Shown in pieces: positions 13,308 to 15,687 of a stretch of DNA of 33,826 nucleotides. Position numbers and translations under genes: made by a program. Below the pieces are notes generated by a model. It had not been told where the DNA came from and did no database searches. It was given only the letters and a program-made list of their open reading frames with translations. Positions within the stretch are counted from its first letter, which is position 1, and the number at the start of each line of letters is the position of its first letter. The DNA comes from Anaerolineae bacterium (GTDB taxonomy: Bacteria; Chloroflexota; Anaerolineae; JACIWP01): the NCBI GenBank assembly GCA_028275445.1, contig JAPWUQ010000007.1, forward strand, positions 1-33,826. The letters are read 5' to 3'.

Positions 13308-13341
13308 GCAGCCATCGGTCGGGTGGGGAACCGATGGCTGC
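13308..13341. other. 12-bp perfect inverted repeat (hairpin) upstream of mraZ promoter
   Basis: GCAGCCATCGGT (13308-13319), 10-nt loop, ACCGATGGCTGC (13330-13341). Confidence 0.75.
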
Positions 13342-13551
13342 TCGCCGTGGATGGGATGGGAAATGGTGGGACTTCAGATGAAAGCCTATCAAGCTGTTAA
13401 GGCGCTCTTTTCCCCCAGGCTGTGCAACCGCGTGAACCTGTGTCCGCCTCCCGTACTGCTGTGCCCGACCCTTCGTTATCGTCAACTACATTATAATGCA
13501 GTCGGGCACGAAAATCCAGAGGTTTTCCACTCTATCCGGGACATTTAACAT

Positions 13552-13586
13552 AAAAAACCGCCTGCCGCGCATACTGCGGCAGGCGG
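13552..13586 (-). terminator. Rho-independent terminator of the pilin/lamin-tail gene
   Basis: Minus strand: CCGCCTGCCGC AGTATGC GCGGCAGGCGG TTTTTTA; 11-bp perfect stem with T6 tract, just downstream of the 13608 stop. Confidence 0.9.
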
Positions 13587-13607: not shown

Positions 13608-14576
13608 CTAATAGCCCAGCCGGCTCACCTCATTGCCGGCAGAATCGTACAGCACCGCGGTATCCCCTTTATCATGCCAGATATTTTTGCGCGTCCAGCG
13701 GAGATGCACGGGTGGGTTGCTGGTCGCCATCAATCCGCTGTGCACGTACACTGCCCCGCCCGGCGATAGGACATAGCCGGCAGGGAAGGTATACCACTGG
13801 TTGCCTTTGACGCTGAGGAGCCGCCAGCCAGTCATATCCTGCGGCGCAGTGCCGTCGTTCACTATTTTGACATATTCATCCGACGACCAGTATTTCAGCT
13901 CGGCAAGCACGAGGTGTGGGCGCGGCTCCGGGGTGGGCGTGGGAGTCGGAGTGGGAACGGGGGTTGTGGTGGCCTGAGACGTCGGCGTGGACGGAGGAAG
14001 CGTCCCCGCCGGCCCGCTTGGCCGGCCGCGCACCGCCACCTGAATGCTCCCCTGCCAGCTTCCAGCTTCCCCCACCAGACTGTTAAAAGTCACTCGCAAC
14101 AGCTCCACGCCGTCCAGCCAGGCATCGAGTTCCGCGCCGCCCATGGCATCCGGGCCGGTATATGCCGGCTGACCGCTGGAAGACTGCCGGCCGCGAAACA
14201 CATGAGAAGCCCCACCGGAAAGCACCGTGACCAGATGATCATCCGGCGGAACGCCCTCCAGAGAGATCTCGCCTGAGATCAGCTCCGAAAACGACTTCCC
14301 CAGATTGCACTCCACCATTAGGGTGCCGGCGCCCGAAAACGAGACCGGCGCCGAGCAGGTCGCCGTCTCGACGATAGGCGTAGGGCTGGCCTGCGGTGTC
14401 CCCGATGGGGTCGGCTGGACCACCAGCGCGTGGGAGGAACGGCGGAACACATCCCCCACACTGGTCCCTGTGGCCGCCAGCACCCCGACCACCACCAGCG
14501 CCAGTGTGCCAAGGAGAACAGCATACTCTACCAGGCCCTGGCCGGCCCTCTGCCTATCCCTTCCCCCCGCCATCAT
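13608..14576 (-). CDS. Flp/TadE-type pilin-like N-terminus fused to C-terminal lamin-tail-like domain
   Basis: N-terminus RAG|QGLVEYAVLLGTLALVVVGVLAATG fits the Flp prepilin G|XXXXEY motif plus hydrophobic helix; linker TPVPTPTPTPTPEPRP; C-terminus LVLAELKYWSSDEYVKIVNDGTAPQDMTGWRLLSVKGNQWYTFPAGYVLSPGGAVYVHSG...WHDKGDTAVLYDSAGNEVSRLGY fits LTD style. RBS GGAGGT precedes ATG 14576. Confidence 0.75.
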   Translation of the reverse strand: MMAGGRDRQRAGQGLVEYAVLLGTLALVVVGVLAATGTSVGDVFRRSSHALVVQPTPSGTPQASPTPIVETATCSAPVSFSGAGTLMVECNLGKSFSELISGEISLEGVPPDDHLVTVLSGGASHVFRGRQSSSGQPAYTGPDAMGGAELDAWLDGVELLRVTFNSLVGEAGSWQGSIQVAVRGRPSGPAGTLPPSTPTSQATTTPVPTPTPTPTPEPRPHLVLAELKYWSSDEYVKIVNDGTAPQDMTGWRLLSVKGNQWYTFPAGYVLSPGGAVYVHSGLMATSNPPVHLRWTRKNIWHDKGDTAVLYDSAGNEVSRLGY

Positions 14577-14622
14577 GTCGCACCTCCGCGCGAGTCATCC
14601 GTATTTACCCTTCCACACCGCC

Positions 14623-14652
14623 AATATACATGCAAACACATATTTTTGTCAA
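14623..14652 (-). promoter_or_regulatory. sigma70-type promoter for the pilin/lamin-tail gene
   Basis: TTGACA (14652-14647), 18-nt spacer, TATATT (14628-14623), about 47 nt upstream of ATG 14576. Confidence 0.7.
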
Positions 14653-14817: not shown

Positions 14818-15687
14818 ATGCTCATCGGTCTGCTCAAAACCATGCGTCCCAAACAGTGGACGAAAAACGTCTTTGTCTTCGCCGCGCTCATCTTCGACAA
14901 AAAACTGTTCCACCCGGTCTGGTTCGCCCGCACGCTGGCCGCCTTTCTCCTCTTCTGCTTGATCTCCGGCACCGTGTACCTGATCAACGATGTGGTGGAC
15001 CTGGAAAAGGACCGCCGGCACCCCGAGAAGCGCAAGCGGCCCCTGCCGTCCGGCCAGCTCTCCCCTCAGGCCGCCATCGCGGCGGCGGTCGTCTTTGGCG
15101 CGGCCGGCATCGGGCTGAGCTTCCTGCTGGACCTGCGCTTCGGCGTCATCGCCCTGCTGTACCTGGCCAGCATGGTGCTCTACTCGTTCGTGCTCAAGCA
15201 CCTGGTCATCATTGACATCATGACCATCGCCGCCGGCTTTGTCCTGCGGGTCGCCGCCGGCGTGGTCGTCATCCCGGTCGAGCGCTTCTCCCCGTGGCTC
15301 TACGTCTGCACCACCCTGCTGGCGTTGTTCATGGCCGCCAGCAAACGCCGGCATGAACTGGTGCTCCTGGCCGAGAGCGCCAACAATCACCGCCGCATCC
15401 TGGACGAGTACAACATCGAGTTCCTGGATGATATCATCGCCCTGGTGACCTCGACCACGGTCATCGCGTATTCGCTGTACACCTTCTCGGCGCCCAACCT
15501 GCCGGCCAATCACGCCATGATGCTCACCATCCCCTTCGTCCTGTACGGCCTGTTCCGCTACCTGTACCTTGTGCGGGTCAAAGGCCTGGGCGGGGCGCCG
15601 GAGGATCTCCTGCTGAAGGATATCCCCCTCCTGCTGGACGTCGTCGGCTTTGGCCTGGCGGCCGTGCTGATCCTCTATATTTTCTAA
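14818..15687 (+). CDS. UbiA-family prenyltransferase, decaprenyl-phosphate phosphoribosyltransferase-like
   Basis: MRPKQWTKNVFVFAALIF, NDVVDLEKDRRHPEKRKRPLPSG (NDxxDxxxD), multiple TM segments, YNIEFLDDIIALVTSTTVIAYSLYTF, GAPEDLLLKDIPLL; fits the DPPR synthase subgroup. Confidence 0.82.
   Translation: MLIGLLKTMRPKQWTKNVFVFAALIFDKKLFHPVWFARTLAAFLLFCLISGTVYLINDVVDLEKDRRHPEKRKRPLPSGQLSPQAAIAAAVVFGAAGIGLSFLLDLRFGVIALLYLASMVLYSFVLKHLVIIDIMTIAAGFVLRVAAGVVVIPVERFSPWLYVCTTLLALFMAASKRRHELVLLAESANNHRRILDEYNIEFLDDIIALVTSTTVIAYSLYTFSAPNLPANHAMMLTIPFVLYGLFRYLYLVRVKGLGGAPEDLLLKDIPLLLDVVGFGLAAVLILYIF

Follow-up and report, generated by a model that had tools for sequence, protein, structure and literature searches.

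The window analysed here, a 33,826-nucleotide stretch of the genome of an uncultured Anaerolineae bacterium, contains an open reading frame on the minus strand (13608-14576, the coordinates given in the first-pass annotation) that encodes a protein of 322 amino acids. Its downstream side is flanked by rsmH/mraW and further dcw genes, and on the other side a divergent gene at 14818 encodes a UbiA-type prenyltransferase, with truA and rpoA beyond it. This agrees with the earlier placement of the gene between the dcw and ribosomal clusters. Upstream of the dcw genes, window positions 13310-13375 and 13470-13515 hold a cluster of TGGG repeats resembling MraZ boxes, along with a conserved TATAAT between CCCGAC and GTCGGG. 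The features of the gene and its product, all on the minus strand, are as follows:

14623-14652, minus strand: sigma-70-type promoter TTGACA-N18-TATATT, 11/12 consensus matches, kept in both orthologs
14582-14587, minus strand: Shine-Dalgarno sequence GGAGGT, 5 nt 5' of the ATG, kept in both orthologs
13608-14576, minus strand: coding sequence, probable modular Flp-type prepilin with a beta-rich middle domain and a lamin tail domain (LTD)
14541-14576, minus strand: leader peptide, residues 1-12, with prepilin-peptidase cleavage predicted after Gly12 from sequence and alignment
14415-14540, minus strand: Flp pilin module, residues 13-54, a hydrophobic helix and a short second helix (profile of short Flps, 38.0 bits, E=2.1e-10)
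14358-14414, minus strand: Pro/Ser/Thr-rich linker 1, residues 55-73, 63% P/S/T
14016-14357, minus strand: middle domain, residues 74-187, beta-rich, with the Cys pair C74/C90, shared with a paralog on contig C55
13920-14015, minus strand: Pro/Thr-rich linker 2, residues 188-219, 72% P/S/T
13611-13919, minus strand: LTD, residues 220-322 (PF00932, E=5.9e-18)
13558-13586, minus strand: intrinsic terminator, 11-bp stem, 7-base loop and T tract, -25.3 kcal/mol, z=-4.68

Orthologs are present in two genomes of the same genus (94% and 82% protein identity). Their surroundings are colinear with the window, over 9.0 kb with 95.9% identity in the first and over 5.6 kb with 85.6% in the second. A scan of the genome contigs returned only the ortholog in one of these genomes (G001). 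Measured against the orthologs, dN/dS is ~0.16 over the whole frame; it is 0.05 in the LTD (against the 82% ortholog) and 0.07-0.13 in the Flp segment, and is much above the LTD value in the leader and in the fast-evolving linker 1, which is the pattern expected of folded domains on flexible links. The promoter hexamers and their spacing are kept in both orthologs, including where the spacer has changed, and the terminator is preserved in both as well, which bears out the proposal that this is a single-gene unit with its own promoter and terminator. The assembly is in pieces (318 contigs), so a chimeric join or a spurious frame had to be weighed; the colinear orthologs, the low dN/dS and the conserved expression signals leave practically no room for either, and we consider both ruled out by the orthologs. 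The frame is a real gene under purifying selection.

Flp pilins are treated as minimal pilins of about 40-60 residues that lack a head domain. The N-terminus of the 322-amino-acid protein includes the prepilin motif Gly(-1)-x4-Glu-Tyr, formed by Gly12, Glu17 and Tyr18, followed by a hydrophobic helix. These three residues, equivalent to Gly(-1), Glu5 and Tyr6, are invariant in an alignment of long and short Flps. The leader has three basic residues and one acidic residue, and a low-confidence structure model places helices at residues 8-36 and 40-50. Against the Flp_Fap family (PF04964), the protein scores 14-16 bits (14.4 in one search), under the curated cut-off of 32.2 bits. Because this cut-off is missed even by the genome's canonical 49-residue Flp (29.9 bits), we made our own profile out of 32 ordinary short Flps, all taken from other Anaerolineae families and outside this genus, and ran it against 3082 ORFs. 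The N-terminus matched at 38.0 bits (E=2.1e-10), and the similarity does not stop at the membrane helix but also covers the part that follows it in typical short Flps. The Flp-type N-terminus proposed earlier is thereby confirmed. The mature protein has 310 residues instead of the short length of Flps (about 40-60 residues), and we therefore file it as a Flp variant, not a canonical member.

A TadE/TadG-type pseudopilin would also account for a pilin-like N-terminus on a long protein, as TadG/CpaL bear large C-terminal domains (PMC12607857). TadE-type ORFs, however, reached at most 17.7 bits in the Flp-profile search, and the 322-amino-acid protein has no TadE match at E<=1, which makes a pseudopilin very improbable. 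A generic signal anchor is likewise disfavoured by the Flp-profile comparison.

Beyond the Flp module, the Pro/Thr stretch noted before the C-terminal domain is found at residues 188-219, and a further Pro/Thr-rich linker occurs at residues 55-73. Between the two, the middle domain gave no Pfam match and no credible PDB match in sequence searches. It shares 32% identity with the middle domain of the C55 paralog, with both cysteines invariant, and C74 and C90 may form a disulphide. The alignments behind the structure models are shallow: an AlphaFold model of the middle domain from a two-sequence alignment has a pLDDT of 62.6, and its fold matches are weak and beta-sandwich-like (FlhE at E=3e-4, followed by viral coats and by furin). 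The full-length model (pLDDT 45.6) is too poor for a fold search.

The C-terminus was described in the first-pass annotation as lamin-tail-like, and residues 217-322 indeed match the Pfam LTD profile (PF00932) with a score of 65.7 bits, where the cut-off is 34.3, covering profile positions 3-107 of 109. The top PDB sequence matches are the Ig domains of lamins A and B1 (E=5e-6). On this sequence evidence, we are certain that it is a genuine LTD. A PHROG tail-protein match (E=2e-4) was set aside, being confined to the LTD part.

Elsewhere in the Anaerolineae genomes examined, lamin tail domains mostly follow Pro/Thr linkers and are carried by secreted, lipoprotein-like, transmembrane-anchored, metallo-beta-lactamase, nuclease-like, LysM-like, kinase and NuoB proteins. 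The LTD is therefore a mobile module. C-terminal LTDs of metallo-beta-lactamase, nuclease-like, LysM-like and kinase proteins were seen at loci L026, L042, L049, L037, L048, L046 and L031. In one Anaerolineae family, two genomes encode a NuoB-like protein (PF01058) with a C-terminal LTD (L029 and L030; G057:C273 and G022:C92; Pfam run on the L029 protein only), an odd fusion of a surface-type module to a cytoplasmic respiratory subunit. Among the genomes examined, the combination of Flp and LTD was seen in no genus but the one studied here.

The role of prokaryotic LTDs is unsettled (PMC6085458). They are known from extracellular nucleases (PMC6085458, PMC4486849) and are found, in related genomes, on metallo-beta-lactamase and nuclease-like proteins, and the Flp pili of M. 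luteus have been connected with transformation (PMC6370729), all of which would fit DNA as the ligand of the LTD. The domain is neutral, however, with nine K/R and nine D/E residues, the mature protein is acidic (pI 5.5), and ExeM can degrade extracellular DNA without its LTD (PMC6085458). We thus regard DNA binding as improbable. For an LTD that is neutral and rich in Trp and Tyr, we infer that a glycan or protein ligand may fit at least as well.

As to the assembly machinery, the genome has TadA-type ATPases on contigs C129 and C203, with TadZ, RcpC/CpaB and TadB pieces also on C203, named by comparison with the matching G001 locus (RcpC-TadZ-TadA-TadB-TadC). In addition, there are TadE genes on several contigs and the canonical Flp on C233. 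The two TadA-type ATPases (G000:C129, 2235-3584, and C203, 614-1996) are distinct, and there are perhaps two Tad-like systems in the genome. The canonical flp gene of the genus (G000:C233; L012, 12718-14240) lies directly 3' of a sigma-70 gene, preceded by a dnaG-like gene, and outside the tad locus.

A search of the genome's own assembly for peptidase A24 returned no match. Both genomes of the same genus have full-length prepilin peptidase genes, and in the assembly studied here the last 30 codons of this gene (93% identical) run right up to the end of contig C177, with the matching neighbouring sequence beside them. The apparent absence of a prepilin peptidase is therefore rejected as a contig-edge artefact; by this match, the gene is present and truncated by the contig end. 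The Tad-like system that the first-pass annotation had asked for is thus represented by TadA, TadZ, RcpC/CpaB, TadB, TadE, the canonical Flp and the tail of the peptidase gene. Likewise, the two features on which that annotation had made its reading depend are both found, the LTD with certainty and the prepilin peptidase gene by its tail at the end of C177.

Our favoured reading, which we hold to be rather likely, is that the 322-amino-acid protein is a modular Tad/Flp (type IVc) prepilin, a minor subunit whose swappable head would bind a ligand at the pilus surface. In this reading, which is the simplest one, prepilin peptidase would cut the short basic leader after Gly12, and TadA with TadB/TadC would pull the Flp helix, with its Glu5 retained, into the Tad filament. 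The two flexible Pro/Thr linkers could then let the middle domain and the terminal LTD protrude from the pilus tip or shaft and bind a ligand, which may be another cell, a surface or a polymer of the matrix. Glu5 is usually absent from the subunit that caps the tip of type IV filaments (PMC10191384). Since Glu5 is kept here, the very apex is not favoured, and the protein may equally well sit along the shaft or just under the tip. In Anaerolineae, transcription of Tad genes is strong, and these genes have been linked to cell aggregation (PMC4877987).

Prepilins sit in the membrane ahead of assembly, and the Flp helix may instead be a mere anchor that holds the protein in the cytoplasmic membrane, so that the LTD is exposed on the cell and the protein does not become part of a filament. 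Such an anchor is consistent with this membrane stage of prepilins, with the position of the gene outside any tad operon in this genus and with the ordinary secreted, lipoprotein-like or transmembrane-anchored proteins that carry other Anaerolineae LTDs. A plain anchor, however, needs neither the retained Gly(-1), Glu5 and Tyr6 nor similarity past the membrane helix, and the constraint on the Flp segment (dN/dS as given above) also argues against it. We consider it unlikely, though less so than the other alternatives. The protein is thus, as far as its sequence can tell, probably a pilus subunit displaying a binding module, and we infer that it may serve as an adhesin or scaffold, as first suggested.

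The protein has company. The C55 paralog in the same genome has the same Flp head and middle domain without the LTD, and Flp heads with C-terminal extensions of at least ~80 amino acids were found in at least eight Anaerolineae families, counts that come from top-ranked, partly hand-picked matches and are not frequencies. In three of three cases tested outside the genus, the extension matched PF06439 (concanavalin-like fold) above cut-off, and other extensions look beta-rich by eye. Among the top-ranked long-frame Flp matches from other Chloroflexota classes, none had a long C-terminal extension. By its domain architecture, the 322-amino-acid protein is a member of a wider Anaerolineae set of Flp-headed modular proteins.

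Several members of this set occur in distinctive arrangements. Tandem genes joining an Flp head to a lectin-type domain were seen in G018 (three; L079:4616-7172) and in G142 (two; L132:275-1876). Loci L078:10878-17119 and L190:905-3020 each hold an Flp-lectin gene 5' of a gene for a REC-ParA (TadZ-like) ATPase, an order of genes seen in the two genomes G003 and G017; the ATPases share 54% identity, and that of G003 is 30% identical to TadZ of the genus studied here. The G017 Flp-lectin gene begins 10 bp past a CHASE4/GAF/PAS hybrid histidine kinase gene, which suggests that signalling proteins and a dedicated pilin form one unit there. G052 encodes two extended Flps at a distance of ~8 kb from an ORF with a resemblance by eye to TadB/TadC and no NCBIfam match.

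Altogether, we see about an even chance that Anaerolineae Tad pili incorporate Flp subunits with exchangeable ligand-binding heads (lamin-tail, concanavalin-like or other beta-rich), in which Flp would be a plug-in carrier and LTDs would be pilus-displayed binding modules, a class missed by surveys of short Flps only. One published Flp search kept only ORFs of <100 amino acids (PMC5430801), a filter by which Flp-headed long genes would be hidden. If the Flp-headed proteins do enter Tad pili, this would explain specific binding by a very thin pilus, and the prokaryotic LTD would gain a directly testable setting.

Among known systems, the protein shares with canonical Flp (PF04964) the Gly(-1), the Glu5-Tyr6 pair, the hydrophobic helix and the short second helix, and differs in ~270 extra residues and a score under the Pfam cut-off. 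Like bacterial LTD proteins such as ExeM and other secreted nucleases (PMC6085458), it carries an LTD on a protein predicted to be exported; unlike the ExeM type, it is without an enzyme domain, and a predicted prepilin-type leader replaces the Sec signal peptide. Added C-terminal domains are also found on two Tad minor pilins, Caulobacter CpaL/TadG (PMC12607857) and Myxococcus KilN (PMC12075869), for which a place at the tip has been proposed, and the Kil Tad tips are a precedent for Tad-pilus subunits with extra domains (PMC12075869). In those proteins, however, the pilin part is a long helix with a beta-sheet pilin-like fold, whereas here it is the Flp module, otherwise the major subunit. 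PilB, with a vWA domain, and PilC, with a lectin domain, are modular type IV pilins of the type IVa pili of Streptococcus sanguinis (PMC8179133, PMC9934059). As a modular pilin joins a pilin module to a domain that is not specific to pilus biology, the 322-amino-acid protein is one by its composition: it has an N-terminal pilin module, a linker and a C-terminal domain that is not pilus-specific, and, as in PilB/PilC, a concanavalin-type module is found on pilin modules, here the Flp heads of related genomes. In contrast to PilB/PilC, which have the type IV pilin motif IPR012902, the carrier here is a Flp module, which lacks the pilin beta-sheet, and it bears an LTD as cargo. A limited search of the open-access literature turned up neither a description of modular pilins with Flp heads nor one of a pilin that carries an LTD. 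The principle of a pilin plus a module is already known, and what look new are Flp as the carrier and the LTD as its cargo.
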